From Erodium maritimum (Eukaryota > Streptophyta > Magnoliopsida > Geraniales > Geraniaceae): 64,000 nucleotides of DNA. The position numbers were made by a program, and so were the translations under genes. This document shows positions 17,221-51,131 of the stretch, one piece after another (the first letter of the stretch is position 1; each line of letters opens with the position of its first letter). The notes below the pieces were generated by a model. It had not been told where the DNA came from, did no database searches, and saw nothing but the letters and a program-made list of their open reading frames with translations. The DNA lies in assembly GCA_963921825.1 (NCBI GenBank), contig OY997595.1, positions 63,643,879-63,707,878 of the forward strand, given 5' to 3'.

Positions 17221-18948
17221 TCTTTTTGGATAAGCTAGAAAAGTTATATTAGAGAAAATAAGATCCAAAGAGGATCAAACCAAAAGATAACCATTACAGA
17301 AGAGCTCTCATGCGGGAACAATTCTCGAAATAAAACCGAAAGGGAAAACAAAATCACCCAGCAGTTACCCACTTTTTGCCTTCCGATGTCAGGCTCGGAT
17401 CATCAAAAGCCTTAGCTTGATGAGTTAGCTGAGCGGTTTGAGTGCGTGTAGCTGCAAGAGCTAACCGAGCATCATGCACCTGCTTGCCAATGTCCACAGG
17501 ATTAACCAATCTCTTTCGACTCCGGGAATGGGTTGGTTTGATTTGAACGGTGTAATAATCCCCAAAAAATTTAGGAGGTCGACTCTGACGATTCGAGGCT
17601 CTAGAGGGTAGCTTCGATTGACGTCCCTTGTTAGAAGGTTTAAGTAGAGCCTCCTTCCATGGACTAATCCGTTGATCTCCGTTTGGGTCGTTAGTGAGCT
17701 GGGCCACATGAGCAGGGCCCAAACCAAGCCCACCCAAATTGCCACCTGTTGGGCTTGTGCATAGGTGCAAGAACACCTTTTGGGTCTGTGCCCACACGCG
17801 GCCCAAGATTCGCCAAAAAAGAGTCAGCTTCGCCAACTTGCGCCACACGTAACGCGTCCAGGTCGTGACTTGATCCCAATATGTTGAATCTATGTGATTC
17901 AAATCAACAATATGGGGCGAGATTAACGCGTCTTGATTGGAAATCACTTCCCCAATGGCTTCAATCCTAGTATTATTGCGATTCAACTCCGAAATCCATC
18001 CAACGTCACTTGAACATTTACTGGAATCGTGGCCAGAGAAACTCCATTCCGAGCGGGCTGGTTGCCATTGGATGACATCGGAACTGACTTACCAAAGGAG
18101 GCATGAGCACCACCATGCTCCAAAGAGTCAATCCATGTGCTCAATTCCACAGTCGTGATCTTAGTGCTGTCTCTCGAACTCCGGTACGCCTCGGATGACT
18201 GCTCAACCACGTCCTTATCACCAGAGGTCACCGGGGTATGATTCTGTAGCGAACCCGAAGCAAGGTTATCCATCGTCGTCATGCTCTGTTTTAGAGCTCC
18301 GACGCGAGGAACAGGTTTCCGACGCCTGGAAATGGCCACGAACAGTAGGTGGCCGTTCATCTTCATCCCGTTCATGCTCTGAACTGCTTAGACAGCCGAA
18401 TCCTTCAAACGGAAACGAACGAATCCAAACAAACGATTTTTGCGGTTTGGTCTGCTCAACGCCGACGAAGACAATATCTCTCCAAAATGTTTGAAGGTAT
18501 TACACATGCACTCTTCCGTTTTTCCATATGGTAAATTGCAGACGAAGATTTCTTCGTCGACGAGATTTACCTTCCTTGATCGACTTCCTGTTATGGGTTT
18601 AAGCTTCCAAAGCACATTTGGAACTTCCTTGACCTGCTGCACCAGGACGGAAGCCTCCTTCTGCTTTGCGACCACCATAACAGGTGCTGACACCAAGACC
18701 TTGGCCGGCAGAACCTCTGCCTCTGGGACTTGAAAGTTTCGCGCAAGTTGTTTATGTTTCTGGCTGGATCGACGAGAAACACTCGGTACCATTTCCTTGG
18801 CACGACCCACATGAAATACAATCTGACAGTAGGAATCGTACGCCTTGATCAGGATCACACAAAAGGAGGAGGAGGGCAGAAACTCCTTCCTCCTTTCACG
18901 GTTTCTCTTCACCATACCAACACCCTAATTTTAACACTTAAAACTTGT
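17221..18948 (-). mobile_element. ORF1-only LINE derivative with 18-bp TSD
   Basis: A 1,728-bp minus-strand insertion flanked by tatctactaaactaatat (17203-17220) and tatctgctaaactaatat (18949-18966), an 18-bp TSD with one mismatch. Read on its own strand it runs from a short 5' leader through an RRM-bearing ORF to a 3' UTR that ends agcttatccaaaaag. No endonuclease or reverse transcriptase is present, and the intact TSDs show that the element inserted in this form rather than losing ORF2 afterwards. It probably moved with enzymes from an autonomous LINE. Confidence 0.85.
17354..18915 (-). pseudogene. RRM protein of the ORF1-only LINE derivative
   Basis: Translation from 18915 opens MVKRNRERRKEFLP and reaches an RRM: EEIFVCNLPYGKTEECMC, then FGFVRFRLKDSAV, a stop (TAA near 18388), and in the same frame AVQSMNGMKMNGHLLFVAIS, the normal end of an RRM. 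A second break near 17985 is a frameshift, after which the frame from 17986 gives a basic C-terminal region ending at 17354 with no known domain. The likely role, by analogy with LINE ORF1, is RNA binding. It lacks the EKAW..CK..GF motif seen in the other elements, so it belongs to a separate subfamily. Confidence 0.7.
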
Positions 18949-18966
18949 TATCTGCTAAACTAATAT

Positions 18967-19139
18967 AACTTAGGTTTAATAACAAGATTAAACCCAACAG
19001 TTTATCTCTTCTCTTCTCCGAGTTGTAACACGAAAGACACTTATGAATTATTTAGTGAGGTTATTAAAGCTTATTTGGTTGGAAAAATTCTTCATGCTCT
19101 CTTGTGTTCTTTAGACTCTTTAGCCTAAATCATGTTATG
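18967..19139. other. Flank, no gene seen
   Basis: Short AT-rich segment before the DUF4283 remnant. Confidence 0.4.
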
Positions 19140-20481
19140 TCAATGTCGACTGCACCATCGCCTGTCTCCTCGACTTCTACGTCACAGCTCGCCCCACCTA
19201 CGACGTTAACTATGTCCCCTCCTCTTTCTACAGCGGATGTTTTCTTACTCCATTAATAATGTCCCCAAGATCTCTATCTGGATTCACCCCCTCAACGAAA
19301 GTCAGGAAGAGGAGAAACCCTAAAGCATCCTCTTCTGTCTCACCGATCACACCACCGCCATCTCTATTCCTCCCACAAGACAAACTGACTGCGGAGGCCT
19401 CGACTATGGTGGTCTTCTCTTCATGGCATGTCTCACCGGGCTTCACTCCGTCTAAACCCAAGTGGGGTCTCCCTGCCAAGCCTTCATGTCATACGTTGTC
19501 GTAAACCTACACACCACCGCCAACTATGGATGGTCCTTATTTTGTTGTTTCAGAGACGTATAGGGTTCAGGGCTTCCTTGTCCCATTACTTCCTAGAGAC
19601 CCTCCGCATCTTGAGAACCCATCACAATCGATGGGGACTCTTCAGGCTGTCTCTCGGTGTGCTTCCTCGCTGAAAAGGATGAGATGAAGGTCATGGTTCC
19701 CTCATTCTGGCGGACCCTGCGATCCTCGCTCGCCAGCAGTATGTCATGGTGGGTCGGCTGGTTTCGCTAGAACCAACTCGAAAGGACTTCATGCTCACGA
19801 ACATCACACGAGCATGGGGCCGATCAACGTCAGTATTGGTGGTTAAGGAGCTAGAACCCGGGACCTATGGCTTTTATTTCACGTCTCAGGATGCGAGGGC
19901 CTGGGTTCGGAACAACGAACCTTAGTGCTTTAATGTCTATTCGATGATGCTGGGGGAAATAGTGGACCCGTTGGCTCGGGACCTCCCCAATTTGGATCAG
20001 ATCCAACTATGGGTGCATGCACGGGGTCTCCCGCCTTCGGTCCGTACAAAAGTTATTGGGGAAGTTATTGGAGCCATGGTACGGGAGTGCGTGGATGTCC
20101 CTATTGACTAGTGGGGCCTGTTTTGGGGCGGGACTTTCAAAGTCCGGTTTTGAATGGAGCTACACCGGCCCCTCACGGACTATGGTCATGAAGTTTCGGG
20201 AGTTTCCGAAGCCAATTAGGGTCACCCTGACCTATGATCGACTACCAACATTCTGTTATAATTGCAGCCGAATTGACCATGTGGTCTATGAGTGTGAACT
20301 GGAGATGCCAGGGATACCGATATTTGATGACTCTTTCTTGGAGTTCAAGGATGATAACCTCGAGAAGTTCTATGCTACGGATTGGGAGACGGTGATCCAA
20401 TCTGCAACCGACTCATGGTGTCCCTTTCTGGTCTGTAGCTTGGCCAGCTTGTACTCCTCTCTTACCTCTGGAGAGGTTTAA
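19140..20481 (+). pseudogene. DUF4283 / zinc-knuckle protein, degenerate
   Basis: The Ser/Pro/Thr-rich N-terminal part (from about 19140) is followed by a DUF4283-like region in one frame (DFMLTNITRAWGRS, TYGFYFTSQDARAWV, LDQIQLWVHARGLPPS, 19790-20050). After a stop near 20110 and a frameshift near 20150 it continues with PIRVTLTYDRLPTFCYNC and SRIDHVVYECE (20217-20300). The last part is a CX2CX4HX4C knuckle, the usual partner of DUF4283 in plant LINE ORF1-type proteins that bind nucleic acid. Several stops make it non-functional. No LINE ORF2 follows, so it is either an orphan ORF1 relic or part of a deleted element. Confidence 0.65.
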
Positions 20482-20489
20482 TTTACATT

Positions 20490-21050
20490 TGTATTCGCTC
20501 ATAAAAAATGTGAGAATAAGAATGGAGATGAGGAAGGAGAAGTATTTGAAGTCTACGTACAAACATAGGGGAGAATTCGTGTTAGACGAATTAAATTTTT
20601 TTTAAATGAGCATGGTGTGCGAAGATTCATTACAACACCAAACACACCTTAACATAATGGCGTAGCCTACAGGAGGAATCGAACCATAGTTGGAATGACC
20701 CGAACCCTACTTTAGAACATGAATCTCCCAATTGTATTTTGGGGAGAGGCAGTCATGACAACGGCTTACTTACTTGTTGAACCAAGCCTCGATAAGAAGT
20801 GTTTTGGCACGGCGTCATATGAAGCCTGTAAGCCGAACATACATTACTTTAGGGTGTTGGGATATTTTGCACACCTGAAAGTGAGACATTCCCATATGAA
20901 AAGGTTTGATGATAAAAGCGTTGTGGTTGTGTTCGTTGGATATGATCAAACTCTAAAGCTTCTCATTTCAATAACCTACAAACGAAAAGGCTTGTTGTAA
21001 GTAGAGATGTAGTGTTTAATGAAGGAAGGAACTGGAACTTGTGAACTTGT
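20490..21050 (+). pseudogene. Copia integrase fragment
   Basis: Pieces of a copia integrase core and its C-terminal part: HRGEFVLDELNFF, HNGVAYRRNRTIVGMTRTLL, then MNLPIVFWGEAVMTTAYLL, FRVLGYFAHLKVRHSHMKRF and DDKSVVVVFVGYDQ, with a further RDVVFNEG after a frameshift near 20960. Stops replace Gln or Lys codons (near 20650 and 20716). No LTR was found nearby, so this is an isolated scrap. Confidence 0.85.
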
Positions 21051-22502
21051 GTAAAAGAAGGGGGTGAAACCGAGTCCTAACAAAAGAAGGTCTTTGGAGA
21101 AAATGTACGCTAACAATAGAGATAAAAGACCGATTATGGTGATAACGATATCTTAACCCTGGAACATGAGCTTTGTAGGTGGCCGCTCCTCACTAACGGC
21201 AACGTTTCTCCCGGCACAGATCTGGTCCCTTGCTCCATCTCAATGGCGACGATCCTGCTTCCCAATGCTCCCGAATGCTCCCGAATGCTGCATCCCCATC
21301 CTCGATCTCATTGGGTCTTCAACCACCATCTTCGATGGCTTGTCCGCCTTCACCATCACTAGTCCCTGATCAATCCCGCCGTCTCTGATGACGACACCAG
21401 TGCATCCATCTCTTTGGCCTCCACCGATGCACCCTTCTCGACCTCTCTCTCGATTCTGAAACAAGCTAATCGATTGGGTCAGATTACTTTATCTGTATTC
21501 TATTTCGCAAGCTTAATGACTAGTGAGTAGATATTCAAGTACTTTTATCGGGAGGGAACCCTGATTCACGTAGTTCCTCCCCTTACTTCTGATGAGTTCA
21601 AGTTCGGTCGCAATTCTCACGGAAAAGAGTGTTTGAAAAGCAGGGATCAAACAATGTTTAGGCACCACTTTGAGTGGTTCTCCTCAGTTTATTAGTTGAA
21701 ACTCTTTAACCTTCTTCAAAAAGAGACTAACTCTCAATTTATTAAAATAAGTGTGAACATAGATTCTTAATTCGTTCTATGTTTATAGATTCTTACTTCG
21801 TTCTATGTTTATTCTTCTGTGATTACTGTTTTCTTAGATACTTAATCGATTATAGTGAATTATGTCCACTATCATCAGAAGAGGCCAAAAATCATGAACA
21901 GACACTGTTGAATGATAAATGGAGAGGGCCGTGGAAGATAAAATTAAGTCTACTCCAGAAAATCAAACTTGGAACAAACCCTAGCCGCCTTAGTCTTCTT
22001 CCTGATGATCCTTTGTCTCCGGTAGCTCCTGTGGTCTCTCTATGGTCGTGGGAGCTGCAGGAACTTTTAGCAACTCACCTCTTGTCTTTCCCCTCTAGTT
22101 CTCGGTGTGGTTGTGCTCTGACGATTCTCGTTTTGCCTCCTTTGTGCTATCGTCGTTCGACGATGTTCCGGTGACCTCGCCTCTGTGATGCTCGTCTCCT
22201 CTTGGATCTGGTGAGTTGTCTTTATCCATCCTCTTTCCCGTATTCCTTGGACCGTGTATTGTCCTGGGGCCTTTGGTATTCCTCCCTTCTATTGGAAGAG
22301 TGCGTGTGGGCGTCGATTCGTCTTCCCTTCGGACTGTCGTGGTTTGGGTGTTGGAAATAGAGTTCGTACGTTTTGGAAATCGCAAGGCACCATCAGAAGC
22401 AAATCATGCTCGCTGGGCATTTGGACCATATGAGGGAAGAGTACCAGAACCATTATTGGGGTTGAAAGAAGGTCGAACGAGGCATCTTACCTAGCTGAGT
22501 GG
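21051..22502. other. Unclassified sequence
   Basis: Low-complexity coding-like pieces without a known domain. A direct repeat aatgctcccg occurs at about 21263-21290. The C/T-rich section 21960-22270 resembles LINE 5' or 3' UTR composition seen elsewhere in the window, but no tail or TSD was found. Confidence 0.35.
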
Positions 22503-22712
22503 ATGACAATGTTCAATCAACTTGAAGCATGGAGGAAGGCTGAATACGAGCTCAGTGAGGAGCTCAAGGTTAAGGATCTACTTCGAGCTAGATGGTTGGT
22601 TGAGCAACAAATTTGGGCACAGCAGGAAGTTACTATTGAGGAACATATTATTGGTCGATTGGCTGCACTTGAGAAGCAAGAGGAACAACACCAGCCAGAG
22701 CACGGTTCCTGA
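22503..22712 (+). other. Short ORF of unknown origin
   Basis: A 69-codon ORF starting MTMFNQLEAWRKAEYEL, rich in Glu, Lys and Leu and probably helical. No family was recognised. It lies at the left side of the gene-fragment region and may be part of a captured gene or a chance frame. Confidence 0.3.
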
Positions 22713-22910
22713 TACACACAAGGTGTTTGATGAATTGCAAATGTCAAACACAATGGATTATGACAAGGTATGGTTACCACAAATTACATTACAGTTGCTA
22801 GTTCCATATATATGTAATCTCGAAATGGTTATTTGTCCGATTAGATTTGGCCTTTTCCTTGATATCAAAACCGAAGCTTTATTTAATGATACAGATGGTG
22901 TTTCCTGTGT

Positions 22911-23013
22911 GGATGTTTGGCATTTCAACTTGAACCGGCCCTACCCTTAAGCAACTTAAGCAGTTGCTTAAGGCCCCACGATGGTGTATGGATGTTTGGC
23001 ATTTCAACTTGAA
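22911..23013. repeat. 24-bp direct repeat flanking a short hairpin
   Basis: The 24 bases starting ggatgtttggcatttcaact occur at 22911-22934 and 22990-23013. The 55 bases between them contain cttaagcaac and gttgcttaag, which pair as a stem around ttaagca. Either a small foldback inserted with a long target duplication, or a local duplication captured it. Confidence 0.75.
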
Positions 23014-24244
23014 ATTTTCAAGATTAGGGTTTGAGTTTTTATCTTAGGGAGGGAAAAGGAGAGAGGAGAAGACTCTCTCCATATTCAGGAGTTAAAATGC
23101 TTCTGAAAATGGTTGCAATTATAATTACACACGACTGTATTGTAGTTTTCTGGTCTTGGAAGACTCAAGGTACTTGGTTGTTGTTTGAGGTGTTGGAGAA
23201 GGCTGTTGGGAAGATTAAGCCTCCTAAAATCAAAAAGGGTATTGGGACAGTACACATTATAGAGTTATTAGGTAGTATGAATTATAACACAATTGATAGG
23301 GAGGTTAATTTTTATGGGAATATTGAAGACGTTACTGTTTTGGTGGTTTTGGGAGTGAATCTTACTCGAAGGTCAATAAATTTTTCATGAGGAGAGCTAT
23401 GCAATTTACTGAGAAAAGTTTTAGACAAAGGTTATATACAGAAGAGGTATGAGTTTCTATATATTGTTGAGGATTATATTGGAGTGTTTATTGAGTTTTG
23501 GATGAGACCTTTCCTGAATCTTCTAATGGGCCGTGTTATTCAAATACTGAGATGCTGCACTACATATATTGATGAGAAGTTAGCTATGTAACAACTAGTA
23601 GTTGGGATGATACAAATGTGAGCCTGTTAAAAGCCTTGAGGTCTCTCTGTTTGAAGATCATTTTGCTTGTTATCAATTACCATGAGGTTCATAATTTTGG
23701 AAGTGAATTCAGGAACCTATTCTCTATCTCTGTGCAACTTTTACAGGATGGTTTCAAGCAAGCATGGGCTAGTGTTGCGACAACACTTACGCTATTATGT
23801 ACTGCATTCTAAAATTCATTCAAATTTTGTTGACAGTTGATAGTGAGTTGGGTGACAAATACAATGGTATTAGAGGGGTTCCTAGTGCCACGTTAAATTC
23901 CATGGAATCGTCGAGAAATCGAACCATGGACTATAAAAATGAGTATGATACTATTTTTATTGAATGAGCTAGAAGTGTTCATTGTTGTCAGTAGGATGCC
24001 GGGGAGAAATGGGTTAGGAAACTTCAAAATGAGATTATTTTCGAAGGGTTTGAATTCTTACTATCTACCCAAACAAGATGAAGGAATCGTTACATGGTTG
24101 ATTAGAATTGGTATACTCCTAAGTATTAAGTCTAAAAAAGGAGGTTATGGAGTACGAATGGTTGATGTCGGGGCTAATCGGTTATATATATATATATATC
24201 ATATGCCCATATCAGTGAGCTAGGGTCAGGAGAAGCTTTATTCC
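23014..24244 (+). other. Coding-like region of unknown origin
   Basis: Runs of open frame on the plus strand (for example 23091-23390 and 23618-23812) are interrupted by stops. They contain no motif that I could assign. Composition and strand match the captured-gene fragments downstream, so these may be further decayed exons. A (TA)n run lies at 24184-24200. Confidence 0.3.
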
Positions 24245-24562
24245 ATGTCCAAGGTTCCGTGGACTATAGTTGACGAGCCAAGACTTTCAGTTAGGGAGCC
24301 TCTTATAGATACATCTCGACTCAATCAGCTATTGCCACTCATAAGGAGTGTTGTTGATTCATGGGTGTATGGTGATTATTCAGAACGTTACAACTATGCT
24401 GCTGAATTTATGAGTTACGCTCAAAGAAAAGGAATTGGGGTATTGGCTAAAATTGAGGTTCCAGGACATTCTTTCTCGTGTGGAATGGGCTGTCATTATT
24501 TCTGGGCATCGCTGAATTTTCAGCGACGTCTTGATGTCACCAATAAGGTGATATATTGGTAA
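24245..24562 (+). pseudogene. GH20 beta-hexosaminidase fragment
   Basis: The frame VPWTIVDEPRLSVREPLIDTSR... matches the start of the catalytic barrel of plant GH20 beta-N-acetylhexosaminidases. It continues LPLIRSVVDS, then jumps to YSERYNYAAEFMSYAQRKGI and AKIEVPGHSFSCGMG. About 30 residues that normally lie between these parts, including the HWHIVD segment, are missing, and the catalytic Asp-Glu pair is not included. The fragment has no intron and ends after LDVTNKV. These enzymes trim N-glycans or chitin oligomers; this copy cannot. It is best read as a captured or retroposed fragment. Confidence 0.8.
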
Positions 24563-24774
24563 CTGTTTCCTTGTGATTATAAATGAAGCAATTGCTATTC
24601 AGGGAACACAATGTTATATGAAAAGTGAAGACATAACTAGAATGCAAGTAGACAAGTCATAGTCGCAAGTCTGGGAGGATTCTTTGGAGGGTCCCTATTC
24701 TTTCTGCAAGAAACAGACAGGGATGGGATCATACATGCTTGCGTGGTAGGGAGGGAATCCACATATGACCTAAT
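24563..24774. other. Unclassified segment
   Basis: Short segment between the GH20 fragment and the LINE insertion, with no supported feature. Confidence 0.4.
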
Positions 24775-24791
24775 AAGATTTGTTTCGAGAA

Positions 24792-25457: not shown

Positions 25458-25474
25458 AAGATTTGTTTCGAGAA

Positions 25475-25695
25475 CGATTGATAGAGTGTGGCATGTTGTT
25501 GCTTATGGGGTTATTAAGAGGAAAAATGAAATTTCCATTGGGGTTCTACAGTTAGGAGCCAATATTACTGGATTGTGGGATGAGGTTGTAAAGAATAGTT
25601 TTGTTATTGAGAATTTTGGGAAGGCCAGAGCTGAAATGGATGGTAATAGGATTGTTATACTGGTGGTCTAGTATTGCATCAAATCCGAGTTTGTC
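25475..25695 (+). other. Coding-like segment of unknown origin
   Basis: An open plus-strand frame reads VWHVVAYGVIKRKNEISIG and continues to a stop near 25670. No family was recognised. After removal of the LINE it joins with sequence before 24775, and after removal of the Harbinger element with sequence after 27838. Confidence 0.3.
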
Positions 25696-25698
25696 TTA

Positions 25699-27835
25699 GA
25701 GCATGTACAACGGGTCGCACCCGCGCCCCACTCCGCGCGCGCCCGGACCGCGGCACGCGGGCCGACCCGTTGTGGAGGCACAAAAACGCGCACCCGCGCC
25801 CCAATTTCGTGCCCCCGCCCCCCATACGCATGCCGCATGCCCCGTCTGCTTCCCGCTGGCCGGTCCCGCTCCCTGCGCGCCGTCGCTGGCGTGGCAGCCT
25901 GTGGCTGCGCCACGTGGCCAGACCGTTGGCAACGGTCATGTTGCTAACGGCTATATTTTTTAATTCAAAAATCAACTAAAACTAACCCTATAAATACCTA
26001 TCTTCACTCTCATTTTTTCCACACCACTCTATACTTTCACTCTTTCATAATCAATTCCTACTTGCTATTTTTGAAAATGTCCGACGACGAGGTTATGTCC
26101 GACGCTGAGGAGATGACGTACGAGGAGCTGGCTCCTCGGATGCCGACGCATGCGGAGATGGCAGCCCAACTGCCGACATATGAGGAGATGACAGCCCAAA
26201 TGCGGCCAGTTGCGCGACGATTCCGGCGGATGATGGAGAGCCAGATGCAGAGAGTAATGCCAAGGGTCCAGAGGGCCATGCGTGGGGAACCAATGCGCCG
26301 AGAGATTAACAGAAATCGTGCGGAAGCCCACATGCAGTTGATGGCGAACTATTTTGACGAACAACCCCTATATGGCCCTGAAATGTTCAGGCGTCGGTTC
26401 CGTATGTGCAGACCACTTTTCCAACGGATTATGAATGCGGTGAAGGCTCACGACCCTTACTTCGTTTCATGGAGGCTCGACGCTGCCTCACGGTCGGGCT
26501 TATCAACGGAGCAGAAGTGCACCGCCGCTACGGATGCTTGCGTATGGGTCCTCGGCCGATTCATTGGACGAAACTCTGCGCATTGGGGTAAACACCATAC
26601 TTGAATGTTTACGTAAGTTTTGCAAGGCCGTCATTCAGGTATTCGGAGCCGAGTACGAGCGTACCCCGACACCGGCGGACATGGAACGCTTACTCCGAGA
26701 AGGGTACAGCCGAGGGTTTCCCGGAATGGCGGGGAGTCTTGACTGTATGCATTGGAAGTGGAAGAACTGCCGAACCGAAGAGCAGGGAGCCCATGGACGG
26801 GGAGATCACCACGGGGACAAGACGATTCTGCTTGAAGCTGTAGCGTCTCGTGATTTATGGATTTGGCATGCATTTTTCGGGATGGCTGGATCGAACAACG
26901 ACATCAACGTCCTCAACCACAGCCACCTATTCCTAGACGCTTACTACGGCCATGATCTAGCTGTGGAGTACGAGATCAACGGGCATCGGTACGACCGACC
27001 TTATTACTTGGTGGACGGCATTGACCCATCATACGCACGGTTCGTGAAGACTATTCGGCATCCCTTCGAGCCCAAAAAGTTGTTTGCTAAATGTCAAGAA
27101 GGTGCTCGAAAAGATATTGAAAGGGCTTTTGGAGTACTTCAAGCAAGGTGGCACATCATTTCCCGTCCCGCTCGGTCTTGGAGCGCAAACTTTTTGGCTG
27201 ATATCATGCACACTTGCATAATTCTACACAACATGATTGTAGAGGATGAGCGTGACCGGTACGAGTATGGGGAGGAGGAGTTGTTGTGGGCGCAACCTCC
27301 AGAAATGCCGAATTAGACACCACCGGAACGATGGCACCACGGAGGGCCATTGGAATACCAGGGACTTGTGGATGCTCAACAAAGTGTCATAGATCCTGAG
27401 ATCCACCATCAACTACAACAAGATCTTATGGAGCACTTATGGGATCGATTTGGAGCTGGTTTCCATGACGACGAGTAGTCGTTTGTGCTCTTGGAGCTGG
27501 TTTTTTGGTGTTGTATGAAAAGGGGTTGAATGCATTAGAAGTTCATTTATATTCGTGTTGAATTTATTTATTCATTATTGATTGTCAATACTTATTTTTG
27601 TTCCAAAATTGTTTAAATTATGACTAAATTAAACGGTTTCTGATAACGAATTAAATTAAACAGGAAAATATCAAATAATAATCCAGTCAGCACAGTTCTG
27701 CACTCCCAGGGCCTCAGAGGTCCTTTCTGTTGTAGAACACCCCTTTTCTGCACTCCCACTCCCTGACTTTTGTCCAGTCAGCACAAGGGTCTCAGGGTCA
27801 GAGCCTCACGCAGGGCCGATCCGGTGTACATGCTC
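25699..27835 (+). mobile_element. PIF/Harbinger DNA transposon with TTA TSD
   Basis: 2,137 bp. The left TIR is gagcatgtacaacgggtcg; the right TIR read in reverse complement is gagcatgtacaccggatcg. TTA duplications lie at 25696-25698 and 27836-27838. It encodes a DDE transposase with a single frameshift. The Myb/SANT-like second protein used by many PIF elements is not seen, so movement would need that partner from elsewhere. Confidence 0.93.
26077..27316 (+). pseudogene. Harbinger DDE transposase, one frameshift
   Basis: The start is ATG at 26077 (MSDDEVMSDAEEMTYEEL). The N-terminal half contains the low-complexity PTHAEMAAQLPTYEEMTAQM repeat and reaches SGLSTEQKCTAA. A frameshift near 26536 then moves the frame, which continues LAYGSSADSLDETLRIG to the end at 27316. 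Catalytic positions are visible: GMAGSLDCMHW (first Asp), FGMAGSNNDINVL (second Asp) and KDIERAFGVLQARW (Glu). The protein would cut at the TIRs and insert at TTA. All other landmarks are intact, so decay is recent. Confidence 0.9.
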
Positions 27836-27904
27836 TTAGTTTTGACTACATCAACCTACTTAGAGCTGGGTCAAGGAGGCCCAACTAATAAATTATTGGT
27901 CAGT

Positions 27905-28156: not shown

Positions 28157-28162
28157 AGCAGC

Positions 28163-28354: not shown

Positions 28355-28406
28355 AAAAACAAGTATTGAGTCTTTCACCAAACTATGGTTATATTGCTTT
28401 TTTTGC

Positions 28407-30174
28407 ATGAAACCTCCTGACCCCTCTTCTCCCGACCTCCCCTCTTCTATCCTTCCCTCCTCTACCATAATATTTGTCCGCAATCTACCTCTAGTGTTCT
28501 CTAATGACCAGCTCCATGCTCTCTTGCTGAGTTTTGCTCAATCAACAAAGCCTTCCTTAGTACCAAACTTTCAGTTTCTGGAAAAAGGTACGGTTTTGTT
28601 TTCTTTCAAGACTCGGCGTCGGCTTCCTTGGTAGTCTCATCTAAACACCACTGCTTGCTCGGTTCGGAACGACTCATTGTCGACTTCTCCCGAGGTCCCC
28701 CCCCCCCCACACACACACACACATCTTGCAGCACGGCAGCTGGTGTTTGCTCCCTCCAAGGTCTCTTCCGGTCACTCTTCTTACAAGGAGGTGGCTTCGG
28801 GTTTTACCTCCTCCGCCCCTGTTCCAGCGTTCTTGAAGTAATCTGCCTCTTGTGCAGGTGCTCCAAACTCTCGTTATGCTGATTTGCTCAAATTCAGCAT
28901 CATTGGCATCTCATCCTTTGGTCGAGATGCAACCACCATCTGGGACGAAATCTTCTCGATTTTGGGGCATCACATTCAAGTTATTGAGCTTGGCATTGGG
29001 GTGTTCTTGGTCTAATGTGCAGACCTTGAATTCTTCAACTCCTTGGATGTCGATGACTGGAAAGGGCTCCGGGACTAGTTTTTTTTATTTCTTACCTTCT
29101 GTTGAAGCAGTCACCAATTGAGGTTGTTTAAGGTGTTTATCAATTGCAGGAATCCCTTTCTCTAGGGTGGTCCTTGGAGACTATTTCCTACATTGCAACT
29201 GTCTCAGGCACTCCCATCTACGTCCACCATGTTTCCACCTCGCTCAAATGCCTCAACTTGGCTTTTGCTCTCATCCATACACGGAAATAGAAGCCTGAAA
29301 TTCATGGGATTGAGCTTGTAATGGAGGGCTTTTCTTACCAAACCCTTGTTATAGGTTTGAATGAGCTTCAGATACTTCGACTTCCTCTTTCAGAGTCGCC
29401 TGCTCCCTTCGACTTGGAAGAACGTGAATTCAGAGCAACCTCGCCGGCTCTTTCTCTTCGGTCTTGGGGATCAGACTCGGTCGAGGCCAACTCAAGGTTC
29501 AGCCATGGCGATTTGGAGGACAAGGATTGTCTGCCTCTATTTACTCTCTAGAATCGAGCAGCCCTAGCGAGTCGGGTGGGACCCTGTTTCTCCATCCTTC
29601 ACCCTCTTCGTCTGATGCTACTTTAGACCTCGCCGGATCCTACCTGGAGCTTGTCTGTTCTTGTCGGTCCTCCACTCAAGCGCTGCCAACTTCGATCTCG
29701 GGAACCTTTCTCGACTTCAATGCCTGTCGGCCGTCCTCAACTCCCAAGACGTTAATTGATACTGCGCTTGTTCCCGAGCCTGCGCATGACTTATTTGATC
29801 GAGGGGTTGTCCTTCCTGGGTCGGCCCGCGCTAGTATGGGCCTGCCTCTGGCCCTGGTCCATTCACCTCCTTCTGGGCCCGGCCCACCGACGGTTTCAGC
29901 CTCTCTCAAGTTTGGGACTGCTCCCTTTGCTTCGTTCATCTTCGATTTGCACTCCCCATCTCACTTGGCCGTCTCGCCTTCCCGGGCCGCTCGTCGCAAG
30001 ATACGTAAAAAGGTAGGCCTCCGTAAATCGGTCGTCTCCCTCAAAGGCGTTAGCCCATCTCGTTCCTTCCGGAAAAAATCCGAGGCCAAGAGGTCGTGGG
30101 CTCTTTGCAAAACTGTAGGGTTTTTTTGCCCGCTCGGGGACGAAGCTGCTATCAATTTGTTCAAGCCTCCTTGA
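28407..30174 (+). pseudogene. ORF1 (RRM) of the ORF1-only LINE derivative
   Basis: It starts MKPPDPSSPDLPSS, closely like MPKPPDPPLLNPSA at 43571. The RRM begins TIIFVRNLPLVFSNDQLHAL; RNP1 (YGFVFFQDSAS) lies in the next frame after a shift near 28585. The middle is disrupted. From 29464 one frame is open to 30174 and ends with SPSRSFRKKSEAKRSWALCK and TVGF, a basic C-terminus shared with 49193-49609 and echoing EKAWAYCKNMGF of the intact LINE. RNA binding is inferred. A C-run next to (CA)n at 28697-28722 may have caused one of the frameshifts. Confidence 0.75.
28697..28722. repeat. Poly-C and (CA)n microsatellite
   Basis: Eleven or so C followed by about eight CA units inside the ORF1 region. 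It is prone to slippage and to sequencing error. Confidence 0.9.
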
Positions 30175-30334
30175 GTTTTTTTTTAGGCTTTTTAGCCCTC
30201 TCGGCTTTTCCTTTCTCTTGCCTTTTCTTCCTCTTTTCATCCCTTTCTGTAATTCTTCCTAATTGTTTTTGGGTTGAATAAAAATCGTATTTTTCATTGA
30301 TAAAAAAAACAAAAAAAAAGTATTGACTCTTTCA

Positions 30335-31445: not shown

Positions 31446-31458
31446 TAACATCGGCACA

Positions 31459-31842: not shown

Positions 31843-31859
31843 TAACATCGGCACAGTAG

Positions 31860-37945: not shown

Positions 37946-37958
37946 TAAAAAAATAATA

Positions 37959-41636: not shown

Positions 41637-41639
41637 TTG

Positions 41640-42510: not shown

Positions 42511-42519
42511 TGCGAAGAT

Positions 42520-43401: not shown

Positions 43402-43570
43402 CTCAACCCAAGCCCCCATGTTAGTAATATGTTCATTACTTATTTCATGCCTTTTGAGTGAAGCAAAAATATTTTTCCGATTATTTGTACCCTCTTTCGC
43501 TAACTTATTTATGCTTGGAAGTACATTAAACAATTTACAGCAAAAGGACAATTGAAAGATGACAAGCTAG
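43402..43570. other. Short host segment
   Basis: The minus-strand frame reads LFNVLPSINKLAKEGTNNRK, possibly a remnant of a host or transposon protein. It was not identified. Confidence 0.25.
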
Positions 43571-43809
43571 ATGCCAAAACCTCCCGACCCTCCACTCCTA
43601 AACCCCTCGGCCTCTGGCCGTTCGTCTCCATCCCCTCCCTCCCGCCTCTTTGTCTACAATCTCCCGTTGGATTGCTCCTCTGAAAACCTTGCTCTTCTCT
43701 TCATGAACTACAGGCCAGTAAGTCGAGCTTTCCTCTCGGCCTCCCTTTCCAGCTCCGGAAAGAAATACCGCTTTGTTTTTGTCCTCAGCACCAACTCTGC
43801 ATCTCCGGA
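43571..43809 (+). pseudogene. 5' part of an RRM-type LINE ORF1, cut by an LTR
   Basis: It opens MPKPPDPPLLNPSASGRSS, like MKPPDPSSPDLPSS at 28407, then RLFVYNLPLDCSSENLALLF (RNP2) and KKYRFVFVLSTNSASPD (RNP1). The frame is open until the LTR starts at 43810, where the reading frame is broken by the insertion rather than by decay. The rest is not found on the far side of the LTR in this window. It belongs to the same subfamily as 28378-30317 and 49055-49610. Confidence 0.8.
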
Positions 43810-44686
43810 TGTAAGAACCGCCCCCAGTCGATCCCGGTCGAACCGGTAAATTTTGGCGAAGTTTGACTTTCGTCCGGAAAAGTCAACCGATGACTCCGGG
43901 AGTCGTTCAGGACCTTTCTGGGGCCCATAAAGCTTAGCCGTCATCACGGTTAGCTTAATTGGGCCATTTCCTTTCGTTTGTCTATAATATTGGAAAAGTC
44001 AACGTTTGGTCAAACCAGGACTTTTTATCGACTAATTCGATGTAATTTGGAAGTGCTGGAAAATCCTAAGAGTTAAGTGGTCCCCACTAGGAAACATGTC
44101 CTTAGTGGCTTGGAGGAGAAGAAATGGGTCTCAAAAGACCCATTTACCCTCACAAAAGCCAATTAAGAAGGATTGGACCTAAGGGCATTTTTGGACTTTC
44201 ATCCAACTAGGTCTTTAAAGAAAATTGGGGCATTTTTCTCCTCATTATTTGTGCTGTCCGAAATTAGAGAGAGAGGAGGAGTGAAGAAAAGGTTTGAAGC
44301 TTGAAGGTGAAGAAAAGTGCAAAAATGGAGTCTTGAGGTTGTTTCTTCCCCAAAACTCTCCAAAACAGCATCTTCTCCATCCTCATTCCACCCCTAAGGT
44401 AAGACCTTCCTCTATTTTTGTTTTCCTTGAGTTTTGATTTGTGGGTTTAGAAGGAAGAACTTGAGAATGGTTGGGTTTTGGGAAGATGACATTGGATGGA
44501 TAAAATGGGAGTGGACGATGGTTTTGATTTGGAATTTTGGAGTTTTGTTGAACACCCATGATGGGTTTTGAGTTAGTGAAGGTTTTAGAGCTGTTTTGGA
44601 GGTCTGGGATTGATAAAAATAGAGTTTTTGGACTGTAATCTCGTGAAAAGGGAGCTAGAGGAAGAAGGAGGTCGGAACCCGTTAGA

Positions 44687-44830
44687 CCCGTCACGGATCC
44701 GTGACGGGTACCGTGACGGGAGACGTCACGATCTGTGAGGGAGACCGTGACGGCGTCAGTCACGGCTCCGTGAGGAGAACCGTGACGGCGCAGGTAACAG
44801 ATCCGTTACCCGATCCGTGATAGACCTGTT
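44687..44830. promoter_or_regulatory. Palindromic cluster of TGACG motifs in LTR copy D
   Basis: A perfect 22-bp palindrome (half-site cccgtcacgga, 44687-44708) is followed by at least four more TGACG/CGTCA cores to about 44790. TGACG is the core of the as-1 element bound by plant TGA-type bZIP factors. Position in the 5' half of the LTR fits a U3 enhancer. Binding and activity are inferred. Confidence 0.45.
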
Positions 44831-45640
44831 TTGAGCCCTTTTTGGTTATTTTCTCCTTTTTTCGACTGGTTGTCTTGAACCGCTTTGTTTAGGTTTTAAT
44901 TTATGGTTTTAATTGTGATCCAAGACCTTGGTTTTGAGCTCGACGAAGGAGGAGGCTTTGGAGACTATGTGAGAAGACGGAGAGGAAGCTAGCCAGGACG
45001 TCAGCAGCTAAGAGTATTAAGCTTTGGAGAATTCGATGTAGGGAATGTATTAAATTCCTCTTTTAATTTTAAAGAATGCTTAGTATGCCTATAGGATAAT
45101 AATAACCGGAAAGGTCCTAGTTTGCATATAGGATGTGATTCACTAGAATAATCGATTTTCAATTACAATAATAAACGGACGAGTCTAGTATGCATGTACG
45201 ATGTGATTCACTAGTTTAATCGCTTTCAATACTTGGGAAATTGCCATGCTGGTAGAATGGCCATAACGAGCCTTAGGATTGTTTGTGATTGTGTTCGATT
45301 GCCTCACATGTCGTGCTTGCCTAAACCTTAGGTTGAGATAAGAGTCAAACTAAACTAGATAAATTGTGATGATCGTGATATGAGTTATTGATCCGTTTTA
45401 TGATTGATTGAATGAATGTTTGAATGTAAATTGATTGTGCCAAATGGTATGATCGGGTGAGTGATAGACCGATGGGACATGGTTGGTAAGTATGTCGGTA
45501 AGTGTGATTGTTAATATGAGTTCTTTGTGGCGTGTTGTGGTAAGATTGTGAGTTGCTAAGCTACGGTTGTACTATGACTGTATTGTGTGTTATTCTCTCG
45601 TTGTGTGTTCTAAGATGATTTGTATTTCGGTAAGGTTCCC

Positions 45641-45905
45641 TACACCGATGGGGTATGCCGGTGTGGGGTAGTACATGGGTCGATGAATTGTGTTCCAGTA
45701 TTGCACCTACACCGATTGGGTATGCCGGTGTGGGGTAGTACCTAGGCCGATGAATTGTGTTCCGGTATGGTACTTACACCGAAGGGGTAAGCCGGTGTGG
45801 GGTAGTACCTAGGCCGACGACTTGTGATCCGGTATGGTACCTACACCGAGGGGGTACAACGGTGTGGGGTAGTACCTAAGCCGAGGGAAGACGTCCAGGC
45901 CGATG
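45641..45905. repeat. 67-bp minisatellite in LTR copy D
   Basis: Four units with an exact 67-bp period: tacaccga at 45641, 45708, 45775 and 45842. Each contains gccggtgtggggtagtac. Confidence 0.92.
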
Positions 45906-46100
45906 TGCGTTTCTGGTACGATGCGAGATTGTTTACCCTGCGGGGATGGTTACTTGTTGCTTCACCCCGAGTGTATGCGTCTTGCGGGAGCATTACCGGG
46001 AGGTTATCCTGTTTCACCCCGATGATTTATGGTTCTTTGGAGACTCGTTCTATACATTCTTTTCAATGGTCAGGGACTCGTCTCCGGATACATTTCAATA

Positions 46101-46990
46101 TATTCTTCTTTGTGATAATGAATAAAAGGATAACACACTTTCACAAAAGAAAACTTCAATTAATTTACGGCGTATGATAATATCCAGAAGAGTTGCTCTG
46201 GTAGGGTTGATATCTCTCAACCCTAGCCGTCGTAGCCACAACCATGGAATCGCTTCCTTATACGCCTCCAACCACCACGATATCGATCGTGAGTCTTCTC
46301 TTCTCTCTACTCCTAGTAGTGCTCTAATATGCACATCCAAAATTCAACGGTGCTGTATCAGAAGGATGGCGTATCGAAGACAGATCACGACTCTCAGTTG
46401 CGGTGGTGTTCCCCTCTGCACATCCGCAATTCGGCGTTGCTGTAGTGGAAGGATGGTGCATCGGCGACAATCCATGACTCCCTGTTGCGGTGATGCTCGT
46501 ACTCTCCGTGTTAGCCTCCCACGTCTCGAGCAGGGACACGACCGTCGATATAGTCGGGATAAATCAGACGAATCAGGCGAGGATTGCTATACAGCATCGC
46601 CAAGCCCAATGAGTAAGCAAGGATTTAGGGATTTACTGGGGGGATCCCTGAATCATACCGTCACTCCCAGCCAGAGTATTATGTTCAAGTTCGGTGGCTC
46701 AGTTCACAAAACGAGGCCTTGGAATGTAGAGACCAAGCAACGTTTAGGTCCCACCTTGAATTGTTCCTGGCAGTTGGCACTTTTTGGTTTTACTTTCTAT
46801 TCTAGTTTTGGCTTTAATTTCCGTTTCAGTTACTTTTATTGTATCAGTTATATTGCTATAACCGTTTCCTATTGGATCGGTTCGCCTTTGAGGGCTATCG
46901 GATCACTACTCTTCCAAGAGTATTGGCCGTTGTAATGACTCTCTCGTCTTTTCAATGAAAGTTATCTTTTATTCTAAACAAAATATAGTA
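46101..46990 (+). other. Unclassified ORF with an 87-bp duplication, LINE-like 3' end
   Basis: An ATG at 46174 opens 253 codons (MIISRRVALVGLISLNPSRR). Residues about 50-110 are an imperfect 29-residue duplication (CTSKIQRCCIRRMAYRR / CTSAIRRCCSGRMVHRR). The end of the frame is aromatic-rich and reads like translated LINE 3' UTR, and the sequence continues caatgaaagttatctttta without a clear poly-A. No known domain was found. I read it as a short LINE-derived element rather than a gene. Confidence 0.35.
46325..46503. repeat. 87-bp tandem duplication
   Basis: Two imperfect units with gcacatcc at 46331 and 46418, about 75 percent alike by eye, inside the ORF above. Confidence 0.75.
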
Positions 46991-47351
46991 TGTATTATGT
47001 TTTATTTATCAACCGAAACTTCAATTAGTTTCTCTATAGGCCCGAACTTACCAGCCAGCTCACTAGCAAATCAGGAAATAAAACTTATATACATACACGT
47101 GGCCAGTCATGATATAGAAGATTTGTACAAAGAAAAAGGAATCAGGAAATAGAGTGATTTAGAAGAGATTGAAGAGGAAAGCAAACCTCCTCCGTATCAA
47201 CAAAAAAAAGGAATTCAATATGAGTAGGAATTCAATATGAGTAGATATATATATATATATAGATGGACAGACCGTCGGAGAAACCACGATTCTTTTGAGA
47301 AACGAGAAGTAAGAGAATGAAATAGAGCCAGTCATACTAGCGATCCAACAG

Positions 47352-47454
47352 GTACGTTTTTGTTACCCTCGTTGTCTATGTTTTGTGTTATTTGTGAACT
47401 GTCATGTATTTCTATCAAATTCAACTCATCTTAACACATCAATTTTTTCTCCAG
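47352..47454 (+). other. Predicted 5'-UTR intron of the F-box/DUF295 gene
   Basis: aacag|gtacgtttttg at the left and ttttttctccag|aatcat at the right give a 103-bp intron with consensus ends and a pyrimidine tract, 10 bp upstream of the start codon. A TA-run at 47244-47262 upstream could serve as a TATA box. Inferred from sequence only. Confidence 0.5.
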
Positions 47455-47464
47455 AATCATAAAT

Positions 47465-48608
47465 ATGGTCGACGCAAATAAAATAACGAAAGAAGGATGT
47501 CAAGTTAAGAAAGAGAAAGGAGAAGAAGTGGAAGTAAAAAGTGGTTTGTGCGAGCTTCCATCGGAACTTCAAGTGCTAATAGCTTCCTTTTTGTTTGCCG
47601 GTGATTCTACTGTGTTTCGTCGTCTTGTTTCGAAATCACTGACGTCGAATTTAGGTACCCTCGCAATTCCTATCAGACCGCAACATCATCCTGAAATACC
47701 ATACTTGATCACTTTACATGGAGATAACTTTCTAAATTTTTATCACCCTACACTTGTCTGTTCCTACCGCGTACAATTGCAAGAATTGTCGGAGGCACGC
47801 ATTCGTTCTTCCAACCACGGTTGGTTGTTAATGTCCACGAATGTTTACGAACGTTTTCTTTTTCGAACCGTTCTCTAAAGAAAAGATCCAACTCCCAAAG
47901 TGTCGTATTGTTATGTCCATGTGTTTTAGTTCGCCTCCTACTTCAACGGACTGCTTTGTATTAGGAATCAATACATGTGGTGACGAATTTGCTATCATAA
48001 GACGTGGAGAAACAAGATGGACATACCGATCTCTTAGTAGGGATGAGAGACAACGTTTTTTTGTGTGTGCAGGCATTCCCCCCACTATACACAATGGCAA
48101 TGGGTTGTGCTACTGTTTGGGTGACGATGGAAACTTGGGAATATTTGATCCGAACGACCAACAACCATATTTGAGAGTTATTGGCAATGGCTACGAAGAA
48201 GATCCATGTCATTCCCTTCGACAACCTTACCTAGTGGTAAGAACCAATGGAGAGATACTGAGAATTTTGGTTTTTGGCAACAAAAAAGTTGAGTGTTCCA
48301 AGCTTAAGACTAGACAGAAGGGTAAGGCTCGTTGGTGCAGAAAAACTAGTTCGGGAAACAGTATGTTATTTCTTAGTTCTACCGGTTGTTTTATGGGATC
48401 GACTAACTTGAGAGGAATGTATAACAAAATCTACTTTCCAATGTTTCATAAAGATGCCCTTTTGTTCTACTGTATGCAGCAAAAGCGATATCTCTCGTTC
48501 CATAGTGATTATTCAAGTGAAAATTGTATTCCCGGCGTAAAAGATTTTTCCAGTAACTCTGCATGGATAACACCGGTCCCTTTCAATAGCGTTGGTGGCG
48601 AGTGGTGA
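47465..48608 (+). pseudogene. F-box/DUF295 (KIB-like) protein, one frameshift
   Basis: ATG at 47465 (MVDANKITKEGCQV). Residues about 27-65 form an F-box (LCELPSELQVLIASFLFAGD, VFRRLVSKSLT). The DUF295 propeller starts with PYLITLHGDN and SSNHGWLLMS, then a one-base shift near 47845-47860 moves the frame, which continues NVFFFEPFSKEKIQLPKCRI and is open to 48608. The family's usual C-terminal features (LFYCMQQKRYLSFHSDYS) are present. F-box proteins of this type link substrates to SCF ubiquitin ligases. Because the rest is clean, this is either a very young pseudogene or a sequence error. Confidence 0.82.
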
Positions 48609-48889
48609 ATTTCTTTCTTTTCCAGTAAGAATATTAATTGTTCTTCTTGAGACTCTTACATGTAGGGAGAATATTTATCGTTTTAAGAATATTAATAGTC
48701 GAAGTATTCTTCGGTCCTATACGGTGCATGTATTATTCTTTCTATACTTGTATGTTGAGACTTTCACCAAATTACTATGAATTTTAACAGAATGTTCACT
48801 TTCATAGTCCTAACAACTTTCAGTCTGTTAGTCCTAACAACTTTTGGTTCGAATTCTTTCTCCAGTATCATAATAGATTTAATCTCTTT
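48609..48889. other. 3' flank of the F-box gene
   Basis: AT-rich sequence with a short repeat tcctaacaactttcag / tcctaacaacttttgg near 48809-48845. It probably holds the transcript 3' UTR. Confidence 0.4.
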
Positions 48890-48937
48890 TTTTCGAAGAT
48901 AGAATTTTATTATATTACATCGCTGATAAAAAAAAAA
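48890..48937 (+). mobile_element. LINE tail remnant
   Basis: ttacatcgctgataaaaaaaaaa at 48915-48937 equals the 3' end of the large LINE (catcgctgataaa, 16914 on). Only the extreme 3' end remains, and the left edge is not defined. Confidence 0.5.
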
Positions 48938-49054
48938 CCTCAATCAAAATGAAGCGTTTCAACCTCTTTACTAATCATTACAATCTTGCCCTTGTGCAAC
49001 CTCAACCAATACAGAACATCCTTCTTTAGACCTGTTTGTCCTCTAGCTTGGTTG

Positions 49055-49610
49055 TTTTTTTTATCAGCAAAAATTACGGTTTTATTCTATCCAAAACAAT
49101 ACACTCCAGAGAAGAAATACAAACGGGGAAGAAGAAAGAAGAACGCCAAAAAAGCCAAGAAAAATAGCCGAGGCTAAAAGATCGAGACTAGACTAGACAA
49201 GATTCTGAAAAAGCTTGATGGTGTCTTTATCGCTGCCTGAAGAGGTGAAGCCCATAGATTTGCACAAATCCCAAACCCGCTTTGCTTCCGATTTCTTACG
49301 TAGAGAGCGAGAAGGACTAACGTCTTTAAACCTTTTAAAATGCTTAAGACGATCTTTCCTAACACGCTTATTTTTCTTCTTAGACCTAGGCAAGCAAGAA
49401 ACGGGATGGGCTGCTGGGGAGTGAAGGCCTGCGATGAAAGACGAGAAGGACGGTTGCGCGTCTGCTGTGGAGGGAGGCCTGAAGCCCAAAGGATTGACCA
49501 AGGCCATTGGATTGGGCCTGGGTCCAAGACTCAGATCTACAGGCTTCGGAAGCAAGTCAAAAGCAGAATTCCAGACTGAAAGATAGGTGGTTATTGAATT
49601 GATTTCCAAA
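49055..49610 (-). mobile_element. ORF1-type LINE derivative, 3' part
   Basis: Read on the minus strand, an ORF1 C-terminus (49193-49609) is followed by a 130-bp 3' UTR ending tttttgctgataaaaaaaa (49055-49074). There is no ORF2 between the ORF and the tail. The start of the ORF is truncated compared with 28378-30317. No TSD was confirmed. Confidence 0.75.
49193..49609 (-). pseudogene. C-terminal part of ORF1, open frame
   Basis: 138 codons without a stop. The RPNPMALVNPLGF-type middle leads to RSKKKNKRVRKDRLKHFKRF and SPSRSLRKKSEAKRVWDLCK followed by SMGF, nearly the same C-terminus as at 30050-30120. The RRM is missing, so it is a 5'-truncated copy. The conserved basic stretch may bind RNA; that is inference. 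Confidence 0.75.
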
Positions 49611-49619
49611 ACTCAGATC

Positions 49620-49739
49620 CTCCAACTCCTCAATACTAAGAATTTTAGGTTTTTCCCTTTGTCATAGGCCGTTGTTGCTGCCAACACCCTCAATCAATCC
49701 ATTGCTTACATCATTCTCCCACCCTTTACAATCTCCCCC
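49620..49739. other. Flank or intron of the MATE pseudogene
   Basis: No supported feature. Confidence 0.3.
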
Positions 49740-50060
49740 ATGCACCCATACAGTGTGAAAAGCTACCCTTGGCATCATATATCAGAAAAACTTGGACAAC
49801 AATCTGAAATATTGACATAACATCACTCGATGATGGAATCGAGATGGCGAGTGCGGTGTATCCTTTCTTATGAAATGCTTCAATCATAATGTGAGTTGCA
49901 ACTACTTGTGATACCAACTTAGCCCGTAACATCAACAATTCCATAGCCTAAACAGTTGCATGAGACTACATCACCAATGCCAGTTAGAACACTTGCAGCT
50001 GCCAGAACCCATAAATCTTTCGTGCCAAGACTTGAAACTCAAGCAACCCATCCAACAAGA
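49740..50060 (-). pseudogene. MATE (DETOXIFICATION) transporter, second block
   Basis: Minus-strand frames give SSLGTKDLWVLAAASVLTGI, GDVVSCNCLGYGIVDVTG, then after a shift AKLVSQVVATHIMIEAFHKK and GYTALAISIPSSSDVMSIFQ. These match consecutive parts of the plastid-type DTX46/EDS5-like MATE proteins: the segment after the first six helices and the loop with an NKKGY-like motif. Two shifts and a stop break it. It follows the block at 53108-53419 in gene order, with about 3 kb of LINE-like DNA between. Confidence 0.7.
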
Positions 50061-50082
50061 ATTGCAGGTAGTGATGTGCCAT

Positions 50083-51131
50083 GACATGACATTCTTGGTA
50101 AAACTCAGCAGATTGCGAAAAGCTCTCTAGAAACTCCCTCCGCTTGGCTTCTTTTTTCCTTACTGTTGCCGGCGGAGACCGCCATACCTCCTCTTGCTCC
50201 CCCCTTTATCTCTATGGCCTGCCCCTTTCCGTACCTGTATTTTCCTGTTCGAGCTTCTTTGGGGCCGTCCTCTTTTCCTTAGCTCGCCCCTCTCCGACCT
50301 CGACTCTCCGATGACCTCCCCTTCTGGTTGCTCTCGCCAGCTCAACGGCCCTTTCTCGGAGTTGTTCCATCCGTTTCTACCCTTGGGCCCTCTAGGTGCT
50401 TATTGGCGTGGAGCTTCCATGGACTGAAGGTTGTTGTGTGGGAGTCGTCGTCCCTTCGTCTTCTCCGTTTCTCGGATCTCTGGGTTGCTCTCGTTTGGAC
50501 TCCCTGTCCTTGGATCTAAGCTTGCCCCCTCTTCTCAGCTCTCTTCTTCCGGCCCTGGCTCTCCTTTGTTGATGCTCATCTTCTCCTCTGGTCGTCCCTC
50601 TTCTGCTCACCCGCCGCCTTCACGACCCGTAACCGTTCGCCTGGGAGATTGTCTTTACTTGGCGGTTTGGTTTTCCGGTTATTTGGGTGCTGGCCCCCGG
50701 CTAGCCCTCTTCCCAGGGTCGTCACCTCCTTCGTCGTCGTATTCTGCTCTTGTTGGTTCGGGTCGCCGGTTTCTCAGGGTGTTGGCCCCCGGGATCCCTT
50801 CTCCATCACAGTCAGAATTTTGCAGCAGCTTATTGGTCTCGTCCTCGCATTTCCGGTGTGGTTATCGATCTTTGGTCCTTGTTGGGTTCTCAATGTCTTG
50901 GTTCCTGTTTCGTCGTGTGGTTTCGTTGTTTCTGAAGTCGGCGTGTGCGTGCGCCCTTTCTTCGTTTCCTGACCTTGTCTTTGGGCCTGCTCCATCCTTT
51001 GGGACTGCCTTTGTTTTGTTCTCTCATTCAATCTTTGTGTTGTTCGTTTCTCTTTCTTCCTCTTACTTTTTAATCCTGTATGTGTTTCATGCTTGATTGG
51101 AATAAAACTGTTATTTTTGTTGATAAAAAAA
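50083..51131 (+). mobile_element. LINE-like nonautonomous insertion in the MATE pseudogene
   Basis: C/T-rich element ending gttgataaaaaaaa (51118-51131), flanked by agtgatgtgccat (50070-50082) and agtgatgtggcat (51132-51144), a 13-bp TSD with one mismatch. The long ORF 50431-51096 is Ser/Leu/Phe-rich, has no domain and is best read as transcribed non-coding or ORF1-like sequence. No endonuclease or reverse transcriptase. Confidence 0.6.

Follow-up and report, generated by a model that had tools for sequence, protein, structure and literature searches.

In this work we have investigated two transposable elements in a 64,000-nucleotide stretch of the genome of Erodium maritimum (assembly GCA_963921825.1, contig OY997595.1, positions 63,643,879 to 63,707,878), which we call the window and in which positions are counted unless a contig is named. 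The elements, E1 (17221-18947, minus strand) and E2 (28378-30317, plus strand), belong to multicopy families which retain only an ORF1-type RNA-binding protein, joined at a constant junction to the tail of a different complete long interspersed element (LINE), and this suggests that each carries its own coat protein and borrows the copying enzyme. Copies are flanked by target site duplications (TSDs), their reading frames have been kept and their tails are shared with LINEs. We consider it very likely that E1 and E2 represent two families of non-autonomous LINE derivatives with separate evolutionary origins, or half-LINEs similar to HAL1, which supply the ORF1 protein (ORF1p) and hijack endonuclease (EN) and reverse transcriptase (RT) by means of the tail. 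A preliminary description of this DNA had proposed a single lineage of ORF1-only elements which provide their own RNA-binding protein and borrow EN and RT. The borrowing gains sequence support because the 3' ends are shared with LINEs, and the elements are indeed ORF1-only and multicopy, but they form two unrelated lineages: ORF1s and their C-termini, untranslated regions (UTRs), tails and LINE partners are all distinct, and no DNA cross-matches between E1 and E2 were found in the window at E 1e-3.

The borders of E2 are set by a TSD, AAGTATTGA[G/C]TCTTTCA, whose 5' copy (28361-28377) and 3' copy (30318-30334) are identical in 16 of 17 bases, a score equalled in none of 100 shuffles. The TSD of E1, TTATCT[G/A]CTAAACTAATAT, stands at 17202-17220 on the 3' side of the element and at 18948-18966 on its 5' side, with 18 of 19 bases matching and no equal score in 60 shuffles, and both elements are thus complete by their TSDs, as had been claimed. 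It had also been noted correctly that in both an open reading frame (ORF) with an RRM leads straight into a LINE-type 3' UTR that is followed by a short A-rich tail; no ORF2 reading frame lies between. E2 begins with a leader from the TSD to the ATG (28378-28406), which shows no convincing likeness to the leaders of other copies. Its ORF1 span (28407-30174) is broken in the window copy and comprises, by comparison with relatives, an RRM, a DUF4283-like domain and a basic C-terminus; the 3' UTR and A-rich tail follow (30175-30317). Pfam sees the domains of the E2 family in the relatives L018 and L009, the RRM in L018 only, to which the window copy is 38% identical over 193 amino acids, and the DUF4283-like domain stays below the Pfam cut-off. 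The E1 ORF span (17354-18924, minus strand), broken in the window into pieces of 178 and 244 amino acids, contains an RRM_1 domain (18394-18549, minus strand; Pfam, window copy, E 1.5e-7), and the E1 3' UTR (17221-17353, minus strand) is mostly common to a LINE family, P1, being shared with the loci L069 and L072 and more weakly with L026. The descent of the E1 ORF1 from a LINE ORF1 appears less certain than that of E2, because E1 shares only the RRM with the complete LINE of the window (35.6% identity over 90 amino acids) and no DUF4283 domain was found in the E1 family by Pfam.

The searched genome comprises 763,042,520 bases in 40 contigs, nine of which together make up about 761.5 Mb, and the window lies at C8:63643879-63707878. 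E2 has at least 46 matches in it (40 of 227 candidates scored), and 20 loci were fetched around the best matches. Half of these loci hold near-full-length copies, 11 in number (L009, L010, two at L011, L016, L017, L018, L020, L023, L024 and L025), those at L011 starting at positions 146 and 369 of the query. The remaining ten loci have only the 3' part, being 5'-truncated, or an upstream part which could not be aligned. Homology between copies extends from the ATG or close by (M.PKPPDP) through to the tail. With the complete LINE of the window as protein query, ORF2 was found between ORF1 and tail in none of the 20 loci, and the LINE pieces at L017, L021 and L026 fall outside the E2 element. 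TSDs, assessed by comparison with shuffles and counted when p<=0.02, flank 6 of the 10 near-full-length copies (WIN2 in the window, L009, L016, L018, L020 and L025), or 6 of 12 if both tandem L011 copies, for which none was found, are counted; L022 and L027 stand outside this count, their 5' starts having been set by hand. Among eight truncated copies TSDs were found for L014 and L019, with L026 at p 0.03. At L011 (C3:79003300-79013200) the flanking DNA is repeated along with the tandem E2 copies, so that one of them probably arose by segmental duplication and not by retrotransposition. At L003/L010 (C4:19680065-19681992, minus strand) a 10-nt repeat, TTCTCTAATA, encloses the E2 copy only when some 245 bp past the tail are added, possibly as a result of 3' transduction or of a nested insertion. 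L021 (C2:77961600-77970600) carries an opposite-strand LINE with EN and RT pieces, upstream of an E2 3' fragment.

E1 is the larger family, with at least 48 genome matches (40 of 1228 candidates scored). Eleven of the 48, counting the window copy, extend without a break from position 362 or earlier to position 1619 or later of 1728 and thus cross the ORF1-to-tail junction; the ten outside the window have 74-81% identity. At three further places the 5' and 3' parts of E1 lie 1.6-6.7 kb apart, judging by match positions alone. None of the 11 copies fetched beyond the window contains ORF2, and the sole ORF2 similarity at these loci, 50 amino acids of EN, lies downstream of the L060 tail. The longest reading frame, that of L064, has 455 open codons and an RRM with E 5.8e-16. 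TSDs were detected in 8 of the 11 tailed copies (WIN1 in the window, L055 and L059-L064) and missed the threshold in L056 (p 0.07), L058 (0.47) and L065 (0.05); L057, which has no tail, was omitted from the TSD and indel counts. The preliminary description had named ORF2-bearing copies and junctions differing from copy to copy as the marks of independent deletions, and had proposed counting copies with TSDs and the same junction. Within each family the fetched copies have a common junction and no ORF2 between ORF1 and tail, so that neither mark is seen.

The tails link each family to a LINE. The genome contains 11 exact occurrences of the 30-nt E2 tail and none of the reversed control. Nine occurrences lie in E2-type elements (eight known E2 matches and a diverged relative, L030, at 64%) and two in another LINE family, P2: L029, where the C-terminus of ORF2 ends just before the tail, and L031, a 147-nt 3' fragment. 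A search with the 3' end of L029 gave at least 41 matches, 36 of the 41 reaching into or through the tail; L032 and L033 of this family are 5'-truncated. The terminal 33 nt (30277-30309, plus strand) are common to E2 and P2, being 100% identical in L029 and L031 and 97% in L032. In L052-L054, P2 copies with EN and RT (a distant ORF1 in L053 and L054, and a zf-RVT domain in L054, the sole one tested), DNA similarity to E2 is confined to these ~33 nt, at 91-94%. An origin of E2 by recent deletion of ORF2 from P2 was rejected, no DNA similarity having been found outside the tail. For E1, the exact 28-nt tail occurs 26 times (control 0). Of 12 occurrences probed, ten were E1, among them L075, assigned by its readable ORF end while BLAST matched its last 75 nt only, and two were L069 and L072, which match the 3' UTR of the L026 LINE (P1; RT E 5.8e-35, zf-RVT E 4e-17) at 80-81%. 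Similarity between E1 and P1 extends over some 90-140 nt at 70-79%, with 90 nt against L069 and L072 and, in three E1 loci, 129-138 nt against L026. Every exact tail probed came from E1, from an E2-type element or from a LINE. At the level of sequence, then, the 3' end of each family is shared with an ORF2-bearing LINE, directly for E2 and P2 and by way of L069, L072 and L026 for E1 and P1.

How could such elements multiply? We hypothesize that the mRNA of E1 or E2, encoding an ORF1-type protein only and terminated by a 3' tail like that of a complete LINE in the same genome, would be translated to ORF1p, which would coat its own RNA. The ORF2 protein of the partner LINE, with EN and RT, might then recognize the shared tail in trans, nick the target and copy the RNA by target-primed reverse transcription, giving rise to TSDs. 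In this proposed cycle ORF1p would act in cis, the partner's RT would recognize the tail, and mobilization in trans would be by exactly P1 and P2.

The reading frames bear traces of selection. In an E2 quartet, L009 and L010 against L016 and L018, internal substitutions at codon positions 1/2/3 number 117/97/198 (p 9e-10), and terminal substitutions 74/70/77. The internal skew to position 3 recurs in 10 of 10 overlapping quartets at p 5e-4 or lower, and terminal counts are flat in 9 of 10, although these quartets have copies in common and are not independent tests; L011a/b entered two of them. Codon phase was set by the real ORFs found in individual copies, and the end of L018 was trimmed beforehand because no more than 8 of 18 columns agreed in its overlap with L009; the overlap with L020 agreed in 765 of 765. 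The third-position excess is found in the N-terminal/RRM, DUF4283-like and linker regions, while the C-terminus changes little, and a control count in the UTR, in arbitrary phase and with few sites, is flat. Indels point in the same direction: in E2, 9 of 10 shared indels are multiples of three against 2 of 28 unique ones (Fisher p 3e-6), and in E1 24 of 26 (p 5e-10) against 34 of 54 unique ones, itself above one third. The E2 indel and pairwise counts omit L022, L027, L015, L012 and L011a/b, which are not full-length or are tandem duplicates. Since shared indels are mostly multiples of three, in both families those lineages which multiplied had preserved the frame; in E2 the sequence was maintained as well as the frame, and in E1 there is almost no amino-acid constraint outside the RRM. 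We had also considered purifying selection over the whole E1 ORF, for which codon positions give no support, frame conservation being found instead. The selection on ORF1 that the preliminary description proposed to look for is thus present as frame conservation in both families and as codon-position bias in E2, but not as codon-position bias in E1.

Several observations weigh against the half-LINE interpretation. No intact E2 ORF was found among the fetched copies, and the long L064 frame of E1 ends in a TGA short of the family C-terminus. Of 18 P2 copies probed at 2.9-3.6 kb upstream, just 3 have EN and RT at the expected site and on the expected strand. The ORF1 proteins of E2 and P2 are only about 25-28% identical (28% over 124 amino acids, E 6e-15), and E2 is therefore no simple ORF2 deletion of present-day P2. 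L069 and L072 are near-identical, and the 336 nt read of each gave no ORF2 match, so that their status as LINEs rests on L026. The P1 and P2 tails have a similar AATAAA-to-A-rich pattern; part of the similarity could therefore be due to shared descent or to polyadenylation constraint. A conserved RNA hairpin in the UTR common to E1 and P1 is a weak possibility, as 3 of 13 pairs show a double change and the covariation term is 0. On the side of selection, one of the 10 E2 quartets has unequal terminal counts (85/63/101, p 0.012), a difference between internal and terminal patterns at p<0.05 is seen in no more than 6 of the 10, and a cruder test of fixed group differences, made before phase trimming, is significant in one of three comparisons (56/50/74, p 0.07; 27/24/29, p 0.79; 9/11/25, p 0.006). 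The codon positions of E1 are flat across the whole ORF (54/58/62, p 0.76), and 7 of 7 E1 quartets are not significant; the RRM alone leans to position 3 in small numbers, for example 0/0/6 and 8/5/11.

Could the protein, then, be a functionless leftover of elements which spread passively, by tail recognition alone? The near-neutral amino-acid positions of E1 outside the RRM would agree with this, but the frame-keeping shared indels of both families and the third-position excess in the RRM, DUF4283-like and linker regions of E2 do not, and we regard such passive spread as improbable. We give about the same small chance to processed pseudogenes, that is, to two domesticated or ordinary host genes for RRM proteins whose mRNAs were copied repeatedly by LINE machinery. 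The short, polyadenylated, mRNA-like build, the AATAAA near the end, the TSDs and the variable 5' leaders are what one would expect of them. Against them stand the 3' ends, which are those of LINEs and share long identity with two distinct ones, and the E2 ORF1, which has the LINE-type RRM and the DUF4283-like domain and is similar to the ORF1 of P2. Moreover, the copies fall into nested subfamilies, with most internal branches supported at >=0.93, and in E2 selection acted on internal more than on terminal branches, both of which fit many source copies. Deleted or truncated LINEs are common in plants, but independent, mutually unrelated ORF2 deletions of ordinary LINEs are very improbable, and are rejected for both families because one junction is shared by many copies at ~65-90% identity, E2 moreover lacks DNA similarity to its partner outside the tail, and there are signs of selection on a shared history.

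The leaders between TSD and ATG measure 21-80 nt and are unrelated between copies, even in the pairs L016/L018 and L063/L064 with their ORF differences of only about 10%, although L016 and L018 share 5 nt directly before the ATG. No convincing homology was found in 15 E2 pairs (best p 0.045) or in 28 E1 pairs (best p 0.015), and the two pairs overall at p<0.05 are about what chance would give; for L060, which has no clear ATG and enters 7 of the 28 E1 pairs, 116 nt including ORF sequence were taken. Because the leaders are unrelated, transcription probably starts from promoters captured in the flanking DNA, with turnover of the leader; alternatively, filler might be synthesized at the 5' junction. 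Perhaps, and this we offer only tentatively, the half-LINEs are promoter-less, protein-coding parasites of LINEs, composed of ORF1 and a stolen LINE tail, which renew the leader in nearly every round, capture flanking promoters and, as two lineages, track two LINE hosts in one genome.

Other parts of the window contain relatives of these elements and of LINEs. E3 (49055-49612, minus strand), with an ORF1 C-terminus, a UTR and the tail variant AATAAAACCGTAATTTTTGCTGATAAAAAAAA, is a 5'-truncated relative of E2; it had been placed in the same subfamily, which does not hold, since DNA identity is 63-67% over the last ~280 nt and the tail differs. At 43571-43811 (plus strand) lies an interrupted start of ORF1 (MPKPPDP..., partial RRM); it is E2-like, as had been described, but matches an E2-family protein with only 38% identity over 82 amino acids. 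The set had further been drawn as far as 51131, but with E1 and E2 as queries no match was found in the window past 49612. P3 (24769-25465, plus strand) is a 3' fragment of a LINE ORF2, and it and E3 end in the same 16 nt, TTTTTGCTGATAAAAA. As a third matched tail pair they are suggestive only, E3 scoring 17.8 against P3 and 18.6 against the P2 copy L054. The LINE used as protein query (11311-16745, plus strand) is of the complete plant type, with an RRM in ORF1 and with EN and RT in ORF2; it was dropped as a partner because its tail is unlike those of E1 and E2. Two overlapping ORFs at 25948-27316 (plus strand) resemble what we take to be a PIF/Harbinger-type transposase, and 54946-56550 and 60143-62474 (plus strand) presumably are Copia-type gag-pol pieces of LTR retrotransposons.

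How do E1 and E2 compare with known elements? They had been put forward as something undescribed. As a kind half-LINEs are not, because mammalian HAL1 (half-L1) is described as a non-autonomous L1 derivative which encodes ORF1p only and arose several times (PMC5753468). Like HAL1, E1 and E2 encode ORF1p and neither EN nor RT. Unlike HAL1, they occur in a plant, their ORF1 is of the RRM type (RRM and DUF4283 in E2) and not derived from mammalian L1, their tails share identity with specific LINE 3' ends, the E2 ORF1 is far from that of its partner, and the leaders are unrelated from copy to copy. The ORF1 of mammals is of the coiled-coil type. In the excerpts of the open-licence literature covered by a limited search, no report of half-LINEs or ORF1-only LINEs in plants was found; as the search was limited, we put forward their occurrence in plants with no claim to priority.

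With LINE-tailed short interspersed elements (SINEs), E1 and E2 share their non-autonomous nature and an ending in a LINE 3' end. SINEs carry no protein, whereas E1 and E2 have an ORF span of ~520-590 codons in a frame kept by selection. Among plant SINE/LINE pairs are ZmSINE2, ZmSINE3 and the TS SINE, a 2013 review counting only three in flowering plants, and one monocot L1 group in lineage ME1 is described there as having a conserved 3' end (the last 45 nt) shared with SINEs (PMC3747384). The autonomous plant L1-clade LINEs with an RRM in ORF1 resemble E1 and E2 in this RRM, in the DUF4283-like domain (in E2 only) and in the A-rich tail, and differ from them in having ORF2, which E1 and E2 lack altogether. 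We take these LINEs to be of the BNR type. HeT-A of Drosophila is a telomere-specific non-LTR element with a Gag-type protein only, for which RT is provided in trans. E1 and E2 would likewise be protein-only non-LTR elements dependent on RT in trans, but, unlike HeT-A, they have copies inside many chromosomes. The pairs E2/P2 and E1/P1 are natural tests for the reading of a specific 3' end by plant L1 reverse transcriptases, and selection on an ORF1 that has no ORF2 beside it bears on the role of ORF1p for its own RNA if the enzyme has another source. Half-LINEs would cease to be a mammalian curiosity, and the presence of two lineages in one plant genome suggests that the strategy of retaining ORF1 while ORF2 is borrowed can be repeated.

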